A stretch of 64,000 nt of DNA from Geobacteraceae bacterium. Its GTDB lineage: Bacteria > Desulfobacterota > Desulfuromonadia > Geobacterales > Geobacteraceae. The stretch is taken from NCBI GenBank assembly GCA_024281055.1, contig JAMXLF010000035.1:62001-126000 (forward strand), read 5' to 3'. Below, one piece after another: positions 52,675-64,000 of the stretch (positions are counted from its first letter, which is position 1; each line of letters begins with the position of its first letter). Made by a program: the position numbers and the translations under genes. Below the pieces are notes generated by a model. The model made no database searches. It was given only the letters and a program-made list of their open reading frames with translations, and was not told where the DNA came from.

Positions 52675-55600
52675 CTACCTTCCGTATTGGTACTGCCACT
52701 GGCTATCCTTCTCGTCCGCCACGCCCCGGTCCGGGTAATCGTCGATTCCCGTCACCAGGTCCCCCCACTGCGCCCCCTGGCGGAGGTTGTTAAACCGCAT
52801 CATGCCGCGCCAGTCGCCATACTTGCGGTAGCGGTCCTGGGCCGCCATCTTCTGGGCGTTGCCGTAGGCCTCTAGTTCCTTCATGATCTGGGTGTCTTCC
52901 CGCAGGTCCGACACCCGGGCCGGCTGCATACCGAAGGCCCGAAGCATCCCCTCTCCGGAGGTCATCCGCACCGGCTGTCCCCGGTAGAACACTTCCTTGC
53001 CGTGGGTCGTGGTCACCGGGCCGGAGGTCTGGCGGACCGCCGACACGACGTTGGCCGCCGCAGTGGGTGCGGCATACTCGGCAGCCCGGGACCAGTCCCC
53101 TTCCCATGCCGCCGCGCCCGCCTTTACTCCCTTCTGCGCCAACCCGCCGATCGGGCCGGTGACCGACTTGGTCACGTCGTCGCCGGCCAGCCAGTTGGAG
53201 AGGAGCGGGATGCGCAGTTGCACCGCCCCGGTCAGGGAGACGCCGAAGAGCGCCCCCGGCAGGCCGTGGTCGTGAACATCGGCCACGAACCCGAAGAGCG
53301 CCTCCGCCGGGCCGCCGTAGTTCCGGGCGTTTTTGCGGAGCCAGTTGCGGAAGGCCAGCTTGGGGGAATACCCGAACAGCTTGAGAATGAACTTGTCCAG
53401 CTCGTCCAGCCCCGGCGCCCCGGCCGCCGCCCCGCCCAGAAGGTACATGGCGAAGAAGAGGCGGACAAGCGCCTTCTGGTCGGCCCGGTTGCCGCTCGTC
53501 GTCCGGTAGTAAATGAGGTTCAGCATGTGGGTGATGTACGACTGCAGGGCATAGGCGCCGCGGCCGAGGGCGGAATGGGCGGCATACCCCGGCAGGTTGT
53601 GGCGACCCATGTCGATGTTCACGGCGTCGTTCACGGCCAGGGCCTTTTGCACCGCCTCGTCGCGGGCCATCCCCTGCGCCCGGAAGACGCGGTAGGACGC
53701 CAGGATCACCGTCTTGCGGTTCAGCTGCTCCACCTTCTGGCCGGGCGCCATGGTCACCCGCACCGCTCCGTGAAGGGCGCGAGACGCCTTGCCTCCCACT
53801 CCGGCATCCGAGCCGGTCATCTCCGCCAAGGCCGTCTCCTTGAACTGCACCTGCACCCGGGGGTCGGCGAACAGGTTCCGCTCGTCATCCGAGAGTTTGT
53901 CCCGCAGCACGTCGAATTCGGCCGCGGCGATCCGGCGCAAGGCTCCCTTCTGGCCGTCGGTCTTCAGGAACGCTCCGCCGGCGATATGTTTCGAGAGTTC
54001 CGCCACTCCCACCACGTACGGTTGGGTGCTGTTGATCAGCATCCACGAGACGTTCCCCCCCAGGTACCAGAGCGACACCGCGGCCCGGGCATCGCCCGAC
54101 AGCCGATCCCACCGCCCGAGGTTGCGCAGGGTATAGCGAACGTAGCGGCTCGCCCAGCGCCGGTGCTCGGCCGGCACCGCCTGGAGGTGCTCGAACTGGC
54201 GCCGGGCATAGCGCGCCTTGGAGAGCATGCCGGCCACCCCGTGCACGTACGACTCGAACTTGCCCAGCGCGTCGGTCCGGTCGTAACCCTCGATCAGGTA
54301 GTCGGCCCGGCGGATATTGTACATACCGGCGCCGCGGGCCATGAGGATCTCCGCTACGTTGGTCTGGTAATCCTTCCGGAGCTCTTCGGCTGCCTTCTCG
54401 CCGATTTCCCCGCGGTTGGTGGCCCGTTTCAACGCCTGGTCGATCATCCGGTCCAGGGCGAAGGAATTGGCGGTGATGTCCTGGTACTCGTCCTCTTGCA
54501 GGCTGTCGCTCTGCTTGTGATTCACCTCGTACGTATGCCCTTCGAGGTAGCCCACCGGCATAAAGGTTGCCGGGTCGCGCCGCACCTGCTGCGCCAGTTT
54601 TTTCGCCTTGCTCTCTTTCGGCACATACCGGCTGTAGACCATCACCCGGTAGTTACTGCCGTCCGGCCGGGTCAGGGGGATGGCCGCCAGGCGCTCGCGG
54701 GCCTGTTCTTCCTCTTCCTTGCGGAACTGCAGGATGATGTGGCCGCTCCCCTCCTGCTGGCGGAATGATCCCCCCAGGTCGTCGGCCACCTGCTCGATCT
54801 CTTTCGCCAGGGTCAGGCCGGGGTAATAGTTCAGGTAGAACTGGGCCGCGGGCTTGCCGTCCCGGGCGGTCACGTCGCGGGTCGTGAAGTCGAGGCGGTC
54901 GATCACGTGGTGGGCGGTGACCACCATCTCACCCTCGCCATGGTTGCGGTGGATGTAGCCCCGCCGCTTCTGGGCCGTCACGTACTTGAGGTCCGCCCGT
55001 GCCGCCTCCTCGTCCCGGGCCTTGAAGTCGATGGCAACGCCTTCGTCGGTCTGCGTCACCCTGGTGTCGAACTTCTTCGCCACCCGTTTCAACTGGTGGA
55101 GGACGTTCACTCCCGGGTCGTAGCCCAGCGATACCCGGAACACTTCCTTCTTCCCTTCCGTCACCTTCTCGAAGCGGTAGTCCAGCTCTCCCTTGTACCG
55201 GGAGCGCTTGCCGGCGATGGTGTCGGCGATCTTCTGCGGGTCGATGCCGTTTTCCCGCATCAGTTCCTCTTCCAGTTTCAGGCCCTCTTCGAAGGCTGTG
55301 TCCGCCGCCTCGATCAGTTTGCGGTAGAAGGCAAAGGTCCGTTCCGTCAGGCCGGCGGCCTTTACCTTCGGATTGAGAAGGGCCTTCTCGAAACTGCCGT
55401 ACTCCACGTTGCGGGCGTCTCCCTCGAACACCAGCACGTCGAAGGCCGCCTTCTCCTCCCTGGAGAGGGGGTCGTACATCCGCTGTTTCGTCTCTTCCCA
55501 GACGGTCTTCATATCTGACCAGTCGAAGAAGTTGCGGAACTTCTCCCGCAGGTTGTCCATGCCGCCCCCGTCGGCTTCCGGACCCTTCTCCGCCAGACCT

Positions 55601-58600
55601 CCTTTCATCCGGACCGCGTCCGTGAACCGGTCTTCTTCCCGCCGCTTCCCCTCCTCGTAGAACGGCTTGACTGCCTCGTGCTGCTCCTGGCGGGAGAAGG
55701 GTTCCTGAAGGAGCCAGGCGATATTGTCCTTCGTGGCTGGTTCGGTGTGCTCTTCGACGAACTTTCGCAGGCGGGAGAAATCGAAGGGATTGAGAAAGCG
55801 GCCCATGGACTTCAGGACTGCCATCGGTTCCAGCCCGGCGGCGACCTCGGCGGCCTGTTCTTCCCGCAGGGCATATTTCGCCGTGATCGAGACGTCCTTG
55901 TCCGAAAAGATCACATAATTGTAATCTCCCTCGCCCGCGCTGCGGCTCGCGCCATTCAGGTATTTTATGCCCCGGACACCGAGGGAGTGGAGATAGTCGG
56001 AGGCGGCGCGATCGCCATCATCCGACAAACCGCGATAGAATTCACCGCCGGACATCGAAAGCGGGTCACTGACAGGATTCTTGTAATACTCCCGCAGGGC
56101 GTCAAACTCGTTTTTCAGAGCAGCCTTCACCGTTTCGCTCTGCTCGGCAAGCGGCTTGTCCCACAGGAGATATTCATCCTCTTTCGGTGCAAGTTCGACC
56201 TGATAGAGGCGGCCGCGGTGTTTGCCCTGCTCCACGGCACGGATTTCCCGTTGCATCTTGTTTTTGAACTCCACGCTTTGCGCCCCATCGGCACGGTGCT
56301 GGAGCTCGTTAATAACCGCAACCGTTTTCCGGTCTTCAGACCATTCGGCTGGCAAACTTTGATAGATGCGGGCCGCAGTCTCGCCAACTTCCAGGCCTCG
56401 GCCGGGCCCCAGTGTGTCCCGGTAATGCTCGGCCACTTCCTTCTTGCCGGCAAAATAAAGCCCATGACCGTACGACTGCGCCCCTTCTCCTGTACCGATC
56501 TTGTCTTGACTGAACTTGTCAAAATCATGAGGCGAGCCGTGCCACGCGGCAGCGTACCGGGCCGGCTGGTAACTCGCCGCCCGTAGGATCTCCTCGTCGG
56601 AAATCCCCTTTTCCCGCAACCGGTCAAGAATGACCTCTGCCAGAGAGCGGTCACCGGAGCGCTCGAAGGCATCGGCCGCCTGTCGTCCCTTGAGCTTTCC
56701 GCCCCACAGGTCGGCAAACACGTCGTCGGCAGTCCGGAACCCCATTTCCCGCAGGGCGTTGCCGACCCGCTTCAGCCAGTTGAGAATCCTGTCCCATATC
56801 CGGCGGATGCCGGGGACGGGTCGGGTCTGCCCCATGCCGTAGCGGCCGAAGGCGTCGGCAGTCCGCTCCTCGCTGTCCCTGCCGTCCCGGGCCGGAAAGG
56901 CCCTTTCCAGAAGTGCGGCGTCACGCTTGTCGATCAACCCGAGCATCTTCGCCGCGTGGAATACCTCGTGGTATCCCGTGGCCTCAGTGGCGTGCTCCAG
57001 GGCAAGGGTGACGATCGCCCGCGTCTGCCGGGCGGTCATCTGTGTCATGCCGGCGATGGTGCCGGACGTCACCCCATGAGCCGCAAAGGCCGCCGGGTCG
57101 TGGTGTACGATACGCTCTTGTGTGCGCAGCTCCGTGGCCCCTTCCGGCAGGGCGGCGAGGATGGCGGTCTGGATGCGGTCGATGGCGACATGGTCGAGGC
57201 CTTCGGAAGCTGCGCCCGCCGCAAACCGCGTTCCATCCTCACGCACGCCGCTCTTGACTTCCTCGGCGCGGTGATATAATATTTTATTAGGGGTCAATGA
57301 CCCGCTGGTCCTGGGGCGAATTGCACGCCTCACCTGCTCCAGCAGCCATTGGCCCTTTGTCTTGTCTATTGCCTCCAGCAGTCCCTTGATCGTCCAGTTG
57401 ACGTATTCCCTTTCGTTCCGTTCGTAAACGCTCGCAATCCTGTTGACTTCGATGTTTCCCGTCTTGACTTCCAGATGCAGTGCCGCCATGACCGGTTTGC
57501 CTTCATGCCGCATCTGAAGCAGCAGCGTCTTGGCGTTGGCCTGTGTATCTGATGCGAACACCGCCACCGGATTGTTGATGTGTCGCGGCAAGTTGTAGAG
57601 AAGTCCCACAGGCAGTTCGTGCCGGGCCGACTCCCCTTGTCCGGTCACCTTATGAACCGTCGCCAGGTTCATCTTGATCGGGAGGCTCGGCACCCCGACG
57701 CTCCGCAATATTTCGCCCGGTTCTCCCAGGTCAAAGATATGGCGATGGGGCAGGCCGACGGTTTTCATGCGATCGAGATCATCGTTGTACCGGCTGTTCG
57801 CGTCCCGCAGGGCAAACAGCGCCGTCCCCTTCTCCCTGGTCTGCAGGGTACCGACAAACTCGTCGAATGCTTTGCCGATCGCCTCTCGCTCCTTCCCCTC
57901 CGGATACGGCCGGGCCACAAAGCCGTCGATCATCGGCACGAGGATGCCGCCGTGGGCATGGTAGACGAGGAAATCGCTCTGGCCGCCGGCTTCCGCCACC
58001 TTGTCCTCGACATAGGCGGCAAACGCCCGGGCCGCCATCTCGTGAGGCTCGCTCCAGTAGTCGCCGCTGCGTGCCTGGTCCATCTTTTTCGCTTCCATAG
58101 CGAAGGAGGTCGGCACCTGTTTGGTCTTCTCCGCCCCGCTCTCCGCATCTCGCAGCATCTTCAGTCGGGCGGCGTAGAGGTTCATATCGGTCCGGAGCTT
58201 GTCGAGGGTGCCGCCCCGCTCGGCGTTGAACCCGGAGCGGTTCCGCACGTTTTTCAGGATGGCCGAGAGCCCCTCCAGGGTGTCGTTGGTGCTGCGGCCG
58301 GCGAAGGCCGCGCGACTCCGGGCCGGGGCGTTCGGGTTGTCTGCCCGCCATTGCGTCTCCAGGCCGCCCCCCTCGACGAGGATCGCGGCCAGCCGGTCGA
58401 ACTCCGCCAGCTGCTCGGCCGAAGCCGGGGCGAGCCCGCGCTTGTTCTTGCGCCACGTGACCTCATGTGTCAGGTCGCGGGCAAGGTTCTTCCGCAGGCT
58501 ATCGAGGGTGGATTTCAGGTTGTCCCGGGCCGCGCCCACGAACTTCTCCGTCTTTTCGGTGTCCTCGACATACTGCTCCGCCTTCTTGTACATCGCCTGA

Positions 58601-61600
58601 ATAAGGGCCTTGTACGCCTCCCGCAGTTCCGGCCGCAGCTGCGACTTGTAGCTCGCGCCATGGCTCAGGTAATCGTCGGGACCGCGGGTCTGATAGACCT
58701 GATCACCACGTTTGTTCGCCACCTTCTCGTTCGGCGCCTTGGAGTCGAGGCGGCCGAGGTAGTGGTCGAGGGCATGGAACCACTCATGGGCAAGCGAGCC
58801 GGCACCCTTCATCTTGGTAAGGTTAATGACCCCGTAATCTCGTTCATAATGAGCCTTGGCCCCGGAAAGCCCCTGACCTCTCGCCCCGAAGGCGATGGCC
58901 AACTCGCCGTTCAGCATCAGGGCCTTAGGCGGGACGTTCAACACCTCCGCCAGGTCGAGCAGCCCATCATAGGCATGGTTCATCACCTGTTGCCGCTCTT
59001 CCTGGTTGTTCCAGTTGCCGAACTCGATCCCCCTTGGCGCGAACGTATCCATGAACATCTGCGCCGTGGCGGGTTCGGTTCGCCTTTCGGCTCCCGTGCG
59101 CACGGCGATCTCCGGCACCGGCAGGATCTCCTCACCGAAGGAGGTTTTCGCCTCCAGAAGATTCACGGCGTTCTCCGCCATATAACGCAGGGCGTCCTCA
59201 CGCGCCGGGAAACTCCGTTCCACCACCTTGAGGCGCTTGCGTTCGCCGACGCGCTTGTAGATCGACCAGGTATTGTCGGGGTTCAGCACCGCCTGGTGCG
59301 TCATCGCCACGGCGTAGACCGGGATGGCCGCTTTTGCCTCCTCCTCCGAAGCAAAGGTTTGGCCGGTGCCGGAAAAGGAAAGCCGTCCACCCTTGGTGAT
59401 GATCCCGAACCGGCCTGGCGACTTGATGCTGTGCGCCACGATGAAGCGCTTCTGCCACGCCGGGGCACCGTCATCCTTCTTGGATTTCGGTCCGGTACCG
59501 GTACCACGGGACGCGGTATCCTTGCGCGCCCCGCCGATCTTCTCGCCGAAATCTTCGATCTTCCCGGCGGGAGAGGAGGCCGTTTCCGGCCCCTCTGCGG
59601 TGGCGGGTTCGCTTGCGGGAGTGGTGGCGGGTGTATGTTCATCGGCCGCAGGGCCGTTGCTTTCTCCGTCTGAAGACGCAGAAAGGGGAGAGTCCTGTAC
59701 GGACCTCTCCCCTTCCGATGATTCGGTTTTTCTCTTGCTCGGTTCTACTTCTGCGGTGTGCCCAGCCGAATGTCCACTATCGGGCCGTGCTTCGCCGTGA
59801 ATTCCTGCAACGACGCTATAAGGTCGGCCTCCCCTTTCAGGGTTACGGGTTCCAGCCGCAACCTGCTCGGCTCGGCTGGCGTTGAGCCGCTGGTCGGCGG
59901 AGTTGAAGTCCTGGTCGATTCCATAGTCGAGCCTCCATCCGGTGTATGGGATTATTGTACCATCCTCACCGTCGATTTCAATGGTTTGTTTCGCCACCGC
60001 CTCGGCCAGGCGCTCCAGGGCCTTCTCGGCCGTGGCCGGGTCGTCAAAGATCGTGGCGAACTCGTCGCCTCCCTTGCGGAATATCTTGATTCCGAGCGGT
60101 TCCGCGGCATCGGCGATAAGACGCAGCAGCTTGTCGCCATAAACATGGCCAAACGTGTCATTGATCCACTTAAGTCCCGATATGTCCATGCTCGCCACGG
60201 CATTGCCGGTCGGCATCATTTTCTCAGCCAGTTGCCATCCCCGGGCGTTATACGTATTGGTCAGTTCGTCATGAAAGGCAAGGCGCAACACCCCGTCGAT
60301 ATCTTTCTTGCGGACCAGATCATCAACCTGGCGTCGCATCTCCTCATCGACTCGGCGAACGTGGGACTGGCTTACCTCACTGGAAGCACCGGCGGCCACA
60401 CCACCGGCTGGTACGGCTCCGTCATCTTGTGTCCGCACGTCGGACACTTCTTCTTGTCCTTTGCCACCTTCTTGCTGCATTTCGGGCACTTCATCGGTAA
60501 CCCCCTGTGAATGGTGAATGGTGAATGGTGAATCGGCAAACGCCTTTTTTTGGTTACCATTAGATAACCATTCCTTGAGTCCTTCGGGCGTGGTTTCGGT
60601 GAGGGCGCCTATCCGGTCGGGGCCGCTCTCGTCGTAATTGGCGAGATACCCCAGCCGGGCATCCACCGGCGTGTCCCATCCGATAAGGATTTTATGTTCA
60701 TCGAAGCGGCCCGTCTTAATGTTCTTCTGGTCCACCACGTATACGCGCCGGCTCTCCGGATCAGGACCGACAAAGACGTCGAGATGATCCTTGTCATTCC
60801 CTCGTGGCGCTTTTCCTTGACTCGTCTCGACAATATAACCATAATGGTTTCGCAGTTCGGTTTCCCACGGTCTGCCGTTTTCGTTCGTACCACGCCGTAC
60901 ACTGCCTTGCGGGTTCTCAATCCGTATGTGCAGACCGTTCAGCCAGAAATCGCCTTTCTTGTAATTTCCAGCATGTTTCTGGGCCTCAGTGGGTTCCGGC
61001 AGATCATTTCTTGGGGAGGTTGCTGCGTCATGAGCGGCGCTGTCGATGTGGTGTGCCAATTCTGTGGAAAGAGTTTCCGACGATACCGGTCCCAAATTAA
61101 GGCCAAGATCTTTCGTTCCAACGCCTGTCGTGTCGCCGCTACTCGCCCCGACATCACCTGCTTTGTTTGCGGCGCTCCCATTAGCCGCCCGAGCCACCTC
61201 AAGCGAACTGACAGGTGTTTCTGCGATCAAGTCTGCTATAGTCGCTATCGAACGGCCCAATCTCTCACGCGTCGCAGGATCAGTAAGAGCGGATACGTTT
61301 ACATCTGGCGAGACGGCAAGGAGGTTCTTGAGCACCGCTGGGTTGTCTCTCAGCATCTCGGCAGAGACCTTTTGCCCGGTGAGCATATTCACCATATCAA
61401 TCACGTCCGGACCGACAACCGAATCGAGAATCTTCGGATCATTGGCCCGAGCGAGCATTGCGGCAAGCACCATCCTTTGACTTGGGATGCCAAGCGCGCC
61501 GAAGCCCTTGCTGCGGAGGGTCTCAACGTCAAGGAGATCGCCGAGGCGCTTAACGTCCCTCCCCCCACCCTCTACGACTATTTTCGAAGGCATAACATAG

Positions 61601-64000
61601 AGATTCCCGGCAAGTGGCGCGGTGCCGTTGCTCGACGTTGATGTGACTTTCTGCGCCTGTTCGTGAATAGAGCCCAGCGCCAGGGCCGGGTCATCCGGAG
61701 CGAGCCCCTTGCTGGCGGCATGTTTCTCCCACGACTTCACGAAATCCGCCCGCTCCCCGTCGCTCCAGCCGGTGGTGTCGAGGCCTGCGAGTTTGGAATA
61801 TGTGGCAACGGTCTCTGAACTGGGACCGATGGGACCTGTAGGACTGATCGGACCGAGCACCTCGGGCGTGGGCGGCGGGAAGTCGTAAGACAGTGACCGG
61901 CGAAAAGTGCCGCGGGTGGCGTCTTCCATGGCAGCGTGCAGGTCGTTGACGGTGGCGCCAGGGGGAAGGTAGCCGTTTTCGACCAGGACCTCCCGTATGT
62001 CATCGAGCGTCCGCCCTCCCTGCTTGAACACGTGCATGAACCCTTGGCCCTGACGCATGACATGCTTGTTCAGGTCGCGGCGGGCATCGGTGATGGCGTT
62101 TCCCCACTCGGATCTGGCCGCCTCGGTGTCAATTCCACCCAGCTTGGCGATGGCAACGGCGATGTCATCCTTAGATGGGTCAACCGTGCGGTTTTGCGGC
62201 TTCTTTGTCCCTGTCGATGTCACAGGTTTTGTCGGCGTTGGAGTCTCTTCCGCGGGTGCAGGAGCAGAGTCGGCCGCGATGGGAGCGGCGGGAATGGTTT
62301 TACCTCCCCATCCCGTTGCCGGCTGAACGACCGGCACGTCCGCAGTGGCCTGGCTCCGCCGGTAGGCAGTCAACACCCGTTGGTCGTAAGCGTTCGGGGA
62401 TTCGCCCACCACTCGTTGCATCCCCTGCTGGCGTTTCGCCCAAGCCCGGGCCTCGTCAAGCACCAGTTCATTCGAGTTCTGAGTTCTGAGTTCTGACCCA
62501 GACTGCGGGCCTGAAGAGTTCTGAGTTGATACTGCCGGCCCGGCCATACCGCCACCGTTCAAGCGCTCCTGTGCCGCCTGGATCTCTGTTGGCGTCATGC
62601 CCGGCACTGTCTCCAGAGGCGAATAATCGGCCGGCGCCATGGCCTGTCCCTCGGGGGTGACACGCATGGTAGAGACCGGCACGGGCAGGTTGGACATCCC
62701 CACCGCCCTGGTGAGTGGGCCGGACGGCGCGGGAAGGTCGGTGGCTTCTCCGGCCGCCTCGGGGTTTTGCGCCGGCTGCTCAAACGCGATTGCCTCTTTC
62801 GCCGCTACCTTCTGCAAGGCGAAGTTCGCCCACTCCTCGGCATGGGCCTTGTCCACCGGGGCAAGCTGGTCATACACGAAACTGGCCGCCTCCAGTCTGG
62901 TCTTCGGGTCTTGAGCCGGGTCACTCAGCAGGTCTATCATCCGGTTGCGGGTCACCGCCTGGGAAATGTTGGCGTGCACTCCAAGCGGGGCCATCAAGGC
63001 GGTCATGCCGAGGGTCGGCAGCACGGCATCTTTGGCCGCCTGCCACGGCGTGATGGTGCGGCCCGCCTCGTCCCTGGTCTCGAAGCCATAGCGTCCCTCG
63101 ACGTACGCCTCGCCGCCCCCCTGCCCCATCTCCGTCAGGGTCTCGGAGGCGGCGGTCTTGCCCAGGTCCTTAAGTCCTTCCTTTACCACCCGCCCCACGG
63201 TCTGGCGGGTGGCCAGCTCCTTCAGCACCTCCCCGGCGGTCTTCCCCGCCACCTTGCCACCGAAGCCGAGCGTCTTCACCGCCCATTTGGCCGGGCCGAG
63301 CAGGTTCCCGACTGCCTCGCCGCCGAACTCGATGGCGCCGGTCAGGTAGCTGGCTTTACGGGCGTCGGCCATGATCTGAGCCTTGTCGTCGTCGGTCAGA
63401 ACCGTGCCGGACGCCTCCAATTCCCTTATCTTCTCCTCCCCCTTGTCAAGGGTCTCCTGCGACTGGGACAGCCCGGCCGGCACTGCACCGAGAATACCGC
63501 CGATGGTCGCCGCCGCCCCGGTGGAGAGACCGAGCAGGCCGAGTCCGGTGGTAGCGGCCGCCGCAGGGAGGACCGACATCGGGATCATCTCTGCCCCTTT
63601 GGCCAGGGCGTAGGTCACCGGCCGGCCGCTCTCAGCGGTGACGGTCGGGGCGATGTTAGGCTGCTGGGCGATCTTTTCCGCATTCTCCGCCTGCCACCGG
63701 GTCTCCTCGTCTAACGCCGAGCCGGCCGGGATGAGACGGCGCGCCGCATTGTAGGCCATGCCGGAGGCGACCGGCAGGCCGCGCACCAGGCCGGTAGCGA
63801 TCTCGGCGACTGCCCCGCGCTCTTGTCCCTTCTCCGGGGCAGGAATGGCCTTGACGATCTCGGTAAAACTGTCGTCGTTCCTGACCCAGGGATGGTCCGG
63901 CAACTTGAAGGCGATCCGTTCCGCCGGCGTCTGCTCCGCCATGGTCTTGTGGGAACGGAGCATGCCGGGTTTCGCCAGGTCGGGCCGCAAGATATTTGCG
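52675..64000 (-). CDS. Giant polyvalent phage protein (>3,770 aa, 5' end off window)
   Basis: One open frame crosses the right edge; ATG 63942 or TTG 63990 are possible starts but neither has a good ribosome-binding site. From N to C: Ala/Gly-rich hydrophobic region (63.8-62.8 kb); linker; inorganic-pyrophosphatase-like domain (60.98-60.55 kb, NYKKGDFWLNGLHIRIENP, DKDHLDVFVGP); GGDEF domain (60.33-59.82 kb); zincin AHEWFHALDHYLG (about 58.77 kb); Barnase/EndoU/RelE-like nuclease region (57.70-57.27 kb, LYNLPRHINNPVAVF); second HExxH GYHEVFHAAKML (about 56.96 kb); ADP-ribosyltransferase-like AWHGSPHDFDKF ... GHGLYFA (56.56-55.88 kb); helical large-polyvalent-associated C-terminus. Such proteins are often packaged and injected to counter host defences (inference). 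Confidence 0.85.
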   Translation of the reverse strand, partial: ANILRPDLAKPGMLRSHKTMAEQTPAERIAFKLPDHPWVRNDDSFTEIVKAIPAPEKGQERGAVAEIATGLVRGLPVASGMAYNAARRLIPAGSALDEETRWQAENAEKIAQQPNIAPTVTAESGRPVTYALAKGAEMIPMSVLPAAAATTGLGLLGLSTGAAATIGGILGAVPAGLSQSQETLDKGEEKIRELEASGTVLTDDDKAQIMADARKASYLTGAIEFGGEAVGNLLGPAKWAVKTLGFGGKVAGKTAGEVLKELATRQTVGRVVKEGLKDLGKTAASETLTEMGQGGGEAYVEGRYGFETRDEAGRTITPWQAAKDAVLPTLGMTALMAPLGVHANISQAVTRNRMIDLLSDPAQDPKTRLEAASFVYDQLAPVDKAHAEEWANFALQKVAAKEAIAFEQPAQNPEAAGEATDLPAPSGPLTRAVGMSNLPVPVSTMRVTPEGQAMAPADYSPLETVPGMTPTEIQAAQERLNGGGMAGPAVSTQNSSGPQSGSELRTQNSNELVLDEARAWAKRQQGMQRVVGESPNAYDQRVLTAYRRSQATADVPVVQPATGWGGKTIPAAPIAADSAPAPAEETPTPTKPVTSTGTKKPQNRTVDPSKDDIAVAIAKLGGIDTEAARSEWGNAITDARRDLNKHVMRQGQGFMHVFKQGGRTLDDIREVLVENGYLPPGATVNDLHAAMEDATRGTFRRSLSYDFPPPTPEVLGPISPTGPIGPSSETVATYSKLAGLDTTGWSDGERADFVKSWEKHAASKGLAPDDPALALGSIHEQAQKVTSTSSNGTAPLAGNLYVMPSKIVVEGGGRDVKRLGDLLDVETLRSKGFGALGIPSQRMVLAAMLARANDPKILDSVVGPDVIDMVNMLTGQKVSAEMLRDNPAVLKNLLAVSPDVNVSALTDPATRERLGRSIATIADLIAETPVSSLEVARAANGSAANKAGDVGASSGDTTGVGTKDLGLNLGPVSSETLSTELAHHIDSAAHDAATSPRNDLPEPTEAQKHAGNYKKGDFWLNGLHIRIENPQGSVRRGTNENGRPWETELRNHYGYIVETSQGKAPRGNDKDHLDVFVGPDPESRRVYVVDQKNIKTGRFDEHKILIGWDTPVDARLGYLANYDESGPDRIGALTETTPEGLKEWLSNGNQKKAFADSPFTIHHSQGVTDEVPEMQQEGGKGQEEVSDVRTQDDGAVPAGGVAAGASSEVSQSHVRRVDEEMRRQVDDLVRKKDIDGVLRLAFHDELTNTYNARGWQLAEKMMPTGNAVASMDISGLKWINDTFGHVYGDKLLRLIADAAEPLGIKIFRKGGDEFATIFDDPATAEKALERLAEAVAKQTIEIDGEDGTIIPYTGWRLDYGIDQDFNSADQRLNASRAEQVAAGTRNPERGGRPYSVVAGIHGEARPDSGHSAGHTAEVEPSKRKTESSEGERSVQDSPLSASSDGESNGPAADEHTPATTPASEPATAEGPETASSPAGKIEDFGEKIGGARKDTASRGTGTGPKSKKDDGAPAWQKRFIVAHSIKSPGRFGIITKGGRLSFSGTGQTFASEEEAKAAIPVYAVAMTHQAVLNPDNTWSIYKRVGERKRLKVVERSFPAREDALRYMAENAVNLLEAKTSFGEEILPVPEIAVRTGAERRTEPATAQMFMDTFAPRGIEFGNWNNQEERQQVMNHAYDGLLDLAEVLNVPPKALMLNGELAIAFGARGQGLSGAKAHYERDYGVINLTKMKGAGSLAHEWFHALDHYLGRLDSKAPNEKVANKRGDQVYQTRGPDDYLSHGASYKSQLRPELREAYKALIQAMYKKAEQYVEDTEKTEKFVGAARDNLKSTLDSLRKNLARDLTHEVTWRKNKRGLAPASAEQLAEFDRLAAILVEGGGLETQWRADNPNAPARSRAAFAGRSTNDTLEGLSAILKNVRNRSGFNAERGGTLDKLRTDMNLYAARLKMLRDAESGAEKTKQVPTSFAMEAKKMDQARSGDYWSEPHEMAARAFAAYVEDKVAEAGGQSDFLVYHAHGGILVPMIDGFVARPYPEGKEREAIGKAFDEFVGTLQTREKGTALFALRDANSRYNDDLDRMKTVGLPHRHIFDLGEPGEILRSVGVPSLPIKMNLATVHKVTGQGESARHELPVGLLYNLPRHINNPVAVFASDTQANAKTLLLQMRHEGKPVMAALHLEVKTGNIEVNRIASVYERNEREYVNWTIKGLLEAIDKTKGQWLLEQVRRAIRPRTSGSLTPNKILYHRAEEVKSGVREDGTRFAAGAASEGLDHVAIDRIQTAILAALPEGATELRTQERIVHHDPAAFAAHGVTSGTIAGMTQMTARQTRAIVTLALEHATEATGYHEVFHAAKMLGLIDKRDAALLERAFPARDGRDSEERTADAFGRYGMGQTRPVPGIRRIWDRILNWLKRVGNALREMGFRTADDVFADLWGGKLKGRQAADAFERSGDRSLAEVILDRLREKGISDEEILRAASYQPARYAAAWHGSPHDFDKFSQDKIGTGEGAQSYGHGLYFAGKKEVAEHYRDTLGPGRGLEVGETAARIYQSLPAEWSEDRKTVAVINELQHRADGAQSVEFKNKMQREIRAVEQGKHRGRLYQVELAPKEDEYLLWDKPLAEQSETVKAALKNEFDALREYYKNPVSDPLSMSGGEFYRGLSDDGDRAASDYLHSLGVRGIKYLNGASRSAGEGDYNYVIFSDKDVSITAKYALREEQAAEVAAGLEPMAVLKSMGRFLNPFDFSRLRKFVEEHTEPATKDNIAWLLQEPFSRQEQHEAVKPFYEEGKRREEDRFTDAVRMKGGLAEKGPEADGGGMDNLREKFRNFFDWSDMKTVWEETKQRMYDPLSREEKAAFDVLVFEGDARNVEYGSFEKALLNPKVKAAGLTERTFAFYRKLIEAADTAFEEGLKLEEELMRENGIDPQKIADTIAGKRSRYKGELDYRFEKVTEGKKEVFRVSLGYDPGVNVLHQLKRVAKKFDTRVTQTDEGVAIDFKARDEEAARADLKYVTAQKRRGYIHRNHGEGEMVVTAHHVIDRLDFTTRDVTARDGKPAAQFYLNYYPGLTLAKEIEQVADDLGGSFRQQEGSGHIILQFRKEEEEQARERLAAIPLTRPDGSNYRVMVYSRYVPKESKAKKLAQQVRRDPATFMPVGYLEGHTYEVNHKQSDSLQEDEYQDITANSFALDRMIDQALKRATNRGEIGEKAAEELRKDYQTNVAEILMARGAGMYNIRRADYLIEGYDRTDALGKFESYVHGVAGMLSKARYARRQFEHLQAVPAEHRRWASRYVRYTLRNLGRWDRLSGDARAAVSLWYLGGNVSWMLINSTQPYVVGVAELSKHIAGGAFLKTDGQKGALRRIAAAEFDVLRDKLSDDERNLFADPRVQVQFKETALAEMTGSDAGVGGKASRALHGAVRVTMAPGQKVEQLNRKTVILASYRVFRAQGMARDEAVQKALAVNDAVNIDMGRHNLPGYAAHSALGRGAYALQSYITHMLNLIYYRTTSGNRADQKALVRLFFAMYLLGGAAAGAPGLDELDKFILKLFGYSPKLAFRNWLRKNARNYGGPAEALFGFVADVHDHGLPGALFGVSLTGAVQLRIPLLSNWLAGDDVTKSVTGPIGGLAQKGVKAGAAAWEGDWSRAAEYAAPTAAANVVSAVRQTSGPVTTTHGKEVFYRGQPVRMTSGEGMLRAFGMQPARVSDLREDTQIMKELEAYGNAQKMAAQDRYRKYGDWRGMMRFNNLRQGAQWGDLVTGIDDYPDRGVADEKDSQWQYQYGR
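60507..60534. repeat. Heptamer tandem repeat (gtgaatg x4)
   Basis: Four 7-bp units, the last ending in c, inside the giant gene; on the minus strand they encode SPFTIHHSQ. Such runs are usually intergenic in this group. Confidence 0.8.
61030..61641 (+). CDS. HNH endonuclease with zinc fingers, antisense inside the giant gene
   Basis: 203 aa. ATG at 61030 with GGGGAGG at 61013-61019. Cys pairs C9/C12, C44/C47 and C63/C65/C69 form zinc fingers. HNH core: E101-H102 (LEHRWVVSQHLGR), H121-H122-N124 (EHIHHINHVRTDNRIENL), N130, N134, H143. C-terminal helix-turn-helix (GLNVKEIAEALNVPPPTLYD). This is a typical phage freestanding homing-type HNH protein. Its codons are in exact register with the giant gene's codons on the other strand, and it uses no TTA, CTA or TCA, so the opposite frame stays open. 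Confidence 0.88.
   Translation: MSGAVDVVCQFCGKSFRRYRSQIKAKIFRSNACRVAATRPDITCFVCGAPISRPSHLKRTDRCFCDQVCYSRYRTAQSLTRRRISKSGYVYIWRDGKEVLEHRWVVSQHLGRDLLPGEHIHHINHVRTDNRIENLRIIGPSEHCGKHHPLTWDAKRAEALAAEGLNVKEIAEALNVPPPTLYDYFRRHNIEIPGKWRGAVARR
62476..62496. repeat. Heptamer tandem repeat (gttctga x3)
   Basis: Three perfect 7-bp units (21 bp, in frame), with a related unit at 62518-62524, in the linker of the giant gene. Confidence 0.8.

Follow-up and report, generated by a model that had tools for sequence, protein, structure and literature searches.

How can a complete homing-type endonuclease gene reside within a protein-coding gene without interrupting it? This question is raised by a 64,000 nt stretch of a Geobacteraceae bacterium genome (hereafter termed the window), wherein a plus-strand open reading frame (ORF) for an HNH endonuclease lies inside a very long gene on the minus strand. 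Endonuclease insertions normally interrupt genes, and the original prediction proposed that either chance or selection has kept this host frame open.

A complete HNH gene in exact antisense register

The HNH ORF (61030..61641, plus strand; 203 aa) begins with an ATG at 61030 and ends with a TGA at 61639-61641. Its product carries zinc knuckles, an HNH_3 core (HRWVV...HHIN...DNRIENL; 61333..61455, plus) in which the catalytic His-Asn-His residues are present, and a C-terminal helix-turn-helix (HTH_23; 61507..61596, plus). The Pfam matches (HNH_3, E 7e-10; HTH_23, E 4e-6) and a PHROG match to HNH endonuclease (E 7e-17) support the earlier claim of a full HNH protein. Its ORF is preceded by a site of its own, a Shine-Dalgarno-like (SD) GGGGAGG at 61013..61019 on the plus strand, 10 nt 5′ of the ATG. 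A sigma-70-like match at 60817-60845 was no better than chance and was discarded. An AlphaFold2 model of the HNH product has a mean pLDDT of 86, and its closest PDB match is the homing endonuclease I-HmuI (prob 0.99, E 4e-3), which is encoded on the sense strand of an intron. The window protein, a putative endonuclease, shares an HNH core and a C-terminal helix-turn-helix with I-HmuI and other phage-intron HNH homing endonucleases. It differs in that no intron was found around its gene.

The host is a giant polyvalent-protein gene (52675..64000, minus strand) that extends beyond the window to an ATG near 64110 by genome coordinates, giving an open frame of 3840 aa (about 3.8 kaa) in the genome. 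Domains above the cut-off are InPase, GGDEF, LPD1 and MuF_C, with ART-PolyVal just under it, such that several polyvalent-type modules are present in one long phage protein. The GGDEF (diguanylate cyclase) match (E 2e-9; within 57001-60999, minus) retains an intact GGDEF signature. With InPase, LPD1, MuF_C and ART modules joined in a single very long product, the host gene resembles the polyvalent proteins of phages surveyed by Iyer et al. (2017; PMC5512222). The survey's main text does not mention antisense or homing, and refers to HNH once, as a fusion to ParB. The nearby genes encode an integrase, AntA, and an SU10-type portal and adaptor, and the giant gene looks as if it sits in a prophage.

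Inspection of the two frames confirmed that they overlap in exact antisense codon register, and that the minus-strand gene stays open through the HNH segment before continuing into its InPase domain (PF18823; 60565..60987, minus; E 5e-44). In this register the HNH start would be read by the host as a His codon and the HNH stop as a Leu or Ser codon. Only TTA, CTA or TCA codons inside the HNH gene would break the host frame, and therefore neither an intron nor an intein is necessary.

One end of the segment overlaps a conserved host module. Most of the InPase domains compared start with a conserved cap, '(L/I/V)DxxAHxAATSP...PEPTxAQKxAGNYK', whereas the sequence preceding it varies between phages. 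In the window this N-terminal cap (IDSAAHDAATSPRNDLPEPTEAQKHAGNYKK; 60958..61047, minus) overlaps the HNH start: six HNH codons, counted from the start codon, correspond in reverse to the conserved cap residues IDSAAH, the GGGGAGG is the reverse of the T-S-P codons of the cap, and the zinc knuckle starts directly past the cap-derived codons. Thus, the position given originally for the extra residues, ahead of the pyrophosphatase-like domain, is correct, but their number is nearer 198 than 204. The start region of the HNH gene appears to come from the host InPase cap, with the insertion abutting the module border. Another nested HNH gene (L254) likewise begins just ahead of an InPase domain. 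On the other side of the segment lies a second conserved module (AIAKLGGIDTEAARSEWG...; 61885..62244, minus) that is common to loci L031 and L036-L040, and thereby also to the second nested case (L037). The HNH DNA read in the giant frame (61030..61641, minus) has no family match, and a structure model of this antisense stretch is helical and of low confidence.

Neither intron nor intein features surround the segment

Alternatively, the segment could be part of a splicing element, either a group I intron or an intein, with a homing gene antisense within it, such that the final product would lack the element. Precedent exists in I-DsqI, a homing endonuclease gene located antisense in a nuclear group I intron (PMC9548176). 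As in the window, homing gene and host gene are on opposite strands, but there the host is an rRNA gene and splicing removes the element, whereas here a protein gene reads through. Three surveyed loci also place an antisense HNH gene, with a register offset of 1, inside an apparent phage-terminase intein (CVAVGTRIRMADGSFKPIEAIQIGD ... VTDLTVEEANHYISDCGLINKN, about 345 aa; L193:4892-8515, L195:3282-5723 and L202:3-1754). Against this reading, an Rfam intron search of positions 60000-63000 gave no match even at E 5. The segment borders show no Cys/Ser block A and no terminal HN-C/S/T, and there is no Pfam Hint match. Moreover, an intron would have no need of an open host frame. We consider a splicing element barely plausible for the window copy.

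An intein with its endonuclease on the other strand, as the terminase loci may have, would constitute a separate finding. In a further locus (L110:1523-4489), an N6_N4 DNA methylase gene with an open frame contains, in its variable loop, an antisense HNH gene that again has offset 1.

The open frame of the window copy alone is weak evidence for selection

One explanation for the open frame is that the HNH gene inserted antisense into a host with few TTA, CTA and TCA codons and left the frame open by accident; the arrangement would then be neutral, or the giant gene in decay. Antisense stops in register occur in the giant gene only about once per 190 codons, and the probability that the window HNH gene would contain no TTA, CTA or TCA is 0.12-0.36 under several codon-usage models. 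Given these values, the openness of this copy alone is weak evidence, and the absence of these three codons from it is unremarkable. Long antisense ORFs elsewhere in the giant gene also favor chance. One of these, in the same register, spans 697 codons (57580-59673, plus), and we read it as a by-product of the scarcity of TTA, CTA and TCA codons there. Since the stops in the window copy do not by themselves show selection, the question shifts to the HNH family as a whole.

Nested HNH genes recur, many of them in polyvalent-protein genes

A mechanical survey based on profile scans yielded 223 unique HNH loci, among which 23 have an antisense ORF in register 0 that spans 400 codons or more. One of these (L306) is shorter and GC-rich and was left out, leaving 22 nested loci: the window, a locus in a second genome (G188/L037), and 20 IMG/VR contigs. 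The genomes of the first two both belong, we infer, to the class Desulfuromonadia; most of the nested cases are metagenomic contigs. Host ORFs span 667-3534 codons, with 3840 for the window locus once followed through its genome; GC contents are 0.43-0.64, and the distribution of longest ORFs among the HNH relatives is bimodal. The recurrence of such ORFs at 22 loci, with GC content as low as 0.43, argues against accidental openness. Two giant genes each hold two nested antisense HNH genes (L160, 481-960 and 1402-2028; L251, 4630-5079 and 6001-6396).

Querying the class with PF13392 recovered an HNH gene on a contig whose polyvalent gene was already known. This gene is also antisense in register 0, and also lies behind the same conserved upstream module. 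A first scan of the genome contigs with a single HNH query had given no match, nor did the N-terminal part of the giant gene match IMG/VR.

Nested loci were searched for the polyvalent-type domains ART-PolyVal, LPD1, LPD3, LPD5, LPD22, LPD38, RadC and InPase. At least one is present in the window and in L159, L179 (which shares a contig with L271), L240, L243, L244, L251, L254, L258 and L266; L248, L249 and L256 are homologous to genes with polyvalent domains. A tree of the HNH proteins is poorly resolved and implies about 12 label changes, only 3 of which are forced by starred branches.

Both strands of the shared DNA bear signatures of selection

On the HNH strand, the catalytic motif is intact in 23 of 23 nested genes. 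An SD sequence of at least 5 nt precedes 10 of the 22 nested starts, compared with 0.9% of background same-frame ATGs, and is weak or absent in about half of the copies.

For the host strand, the absence of antisense stops (88 expected, none seen) was dropped as proof, since the nested loci were themselves defined by lacking stops. Other measures bear on the matter. Where antisense ORFs occupy both flanks, 24 loci read through and 3 are interrupted, a ratio that speaks against chance. Fourfold-degenerate sites in nested HNH genes (Leu and Ser excluded) are about 74-75% pyrimidine, compared with 54% both in GC-matched non-nested HNH genes (p 2e-9) and in non-nested genes that likewise lack antisense stops (p 4e-7), where the shared kinship of the loci makes these p-values optimistic. 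In the window copy, about 61 of 82 such sites are pyrimidine (p about 1e-4 relative to the control mean). A pyrimidine at these sites places a purine at the first antisense codon position, and the antisense frame therefore behaves as a selected coding sequence. A simple strand skew is excluded by the flanks of the giant genes, where fourfold sites on the same strand are only 44% purine, the value being lower in 22 of 22 loci.

This tuning of synonymous sites to the antisense frame is difficult to reconcile with neutral openness, and we regard chance as very improbable. Of the two causes considered originally, the stops leave the choice undecided for the window copy, whereas third-base choice and the 22 loci favor selection.

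Divergence between related loci points the same way. At equal HNH identity (70-80%), fourfold sites diverge by 0.33 as opposed to 0.58-0.62, whereas the first two codon positions diverge to the same degree; the comparison draws on few pairs, five in number and taken from four related loci. Conservation of the antisense product at the residue level is slight but consistently in one direction. These signatures suggest that the shared DNA of the nested loci is selected on both strands.

The antisense stretch occupies a place that tolerates other content

Selection on the host frame might mean that the antisense stretch has been domesticated as a functional polyvalent domain, with the gene pair maintained to the benefit of the host protein and HNH mobility secondary or lost. 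The suppressed fourfold divergence is consistent with this possibility, as are an antisense product conserved slightly more than HNH conservation provides, a shared antisense motif and a weak helical core. However, the stretch was never seen without an HNH frame. Searches of phages, plasmids and IMG/VR found nothing, and a profile of the stretch run on 271 genomes of the class matched only the reverse of HNH genes. Conservation of the antisense residues in proteins without an HNH frame, which would have contradicted the original prediction, was thus sought and not found. An apparent homology to plasmid proteins of Aeromonas and Vibrio proved to be the InPase match, extended weakly into the stretch. 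A fold search with the model of the stretch returned no match, host positions differ between loci, and the catalytic residues are intact in all copies. On balance, domestication appears improbable.

The place taken by nested genes differs in content among host homologues. On either side of their HNH segments, L258, L249 and L256 have matches in Bordetella phage BPP-1 bbp10, in a Caulobacter phage and in Acinetobacter proteins, and these homologues carry an unrelated piece between the conserved flanks; one Acinetobacter gene carries the annotation GNAT acetyltransferase. In bbp10 (L324), a stretch of similar length and unrelated sequence occupies the place of the L258 HNH gene between well-conserved flanks, and is a variable slot in a well-studied phage. 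The L248 HNH gene sits in an ART-domain loop, for which the window's own ART has 62 residues. The unrelated content in homologues and the ART loop together imply that nested HNH genes occupy places that tolerate other content. Distant host homologues have no HNH gene or have other content there, and no near-identical pair of occupied and empty alleles of the window locus was found.

Relation to other HNH insertions

The closest published parallel is the ShiLan domain, where an HNH gene is inserted out of frame in the DNA methylases of mycobacteriophages; it shows a homing pattern, and its authors detected no ribosome binding site (Arsenault et al., 2025; PMC11855218). Both systems place an HNH gene in a phage gene without a host-frame stop and without intron or intein features, both host products keep a long loop, and the HNH proteins are related (36% identity). 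In contrast, the ShiLan gene uses another forward frame of the same strand, whereas the genes described here are on the opposite strand in exact codon register. Many copies have an SD of their own, the hosts are of the polyvalent-protein kind, and the arrangement recurs at 22 loci with signs of selection in both frames. These differences in strand and register identify a new antisense variant rather than a ShiLan member. Among named phages, Bipolar, Cr-LKS3, Jack, BILI and Zitch were rejected as antisense cases, as their HNH genes are on the same strand as their other genes; those of Bipolar and Cr-LKS3 are forward-frame relatives of the window HNH. More distant parallels than ShiLan are the intron genes noted above (PMC9548176) and the homing endonuclease genes that occur at phage exchange boundaries (PMC10448857). 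Within the open-licence literature, the antisense, in-register HNH gene appears to be new, with the same-strand ShiLan domain as the one published relative found.

A model for nested HNH elements and its implications

The segment is probably an HNH homing-type element that occupies, antisense and in register, a slot at a module junction in the polyvalent-protein gene of a prophage. On the plus strand, the HNH protein would be translated from an SD and ATG of its own. Read backwards in the host frame, this DNA would add about 198 residues that the giant protein tolerates, mostly as a linker and, going by the low-confidence model, perhaps as a loose helical bundle. Once expressed, the endonuclease would cut alleles that lack the HNH gene and spread by break repair, and may drive exchange of slots between phages. 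The most far-reaching version of this model, in which nested HNH genes are a widespread mobile class in phage multidomain genes that promotes slot exchange, remains under lasting two-strand selection and has its antisense stretch recruited as a host part, is unlikely in its entirety.

These findings indicate how a probably selfish gene can live in a protein gene without splicing, by lying backwards and in register with its own stop serving as a host Leu or Ser codon. Gene-finding programs that do not allow long overlaps are prone to overlook such nested genes. The 22 cases amount to a natural set of long gene pairs, sense and antisense, in which one side is a known enzyme family, making dual selection measurable and antisense translation testable. 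They also suggest a driver of the mosaicism of polyvalent proteins.
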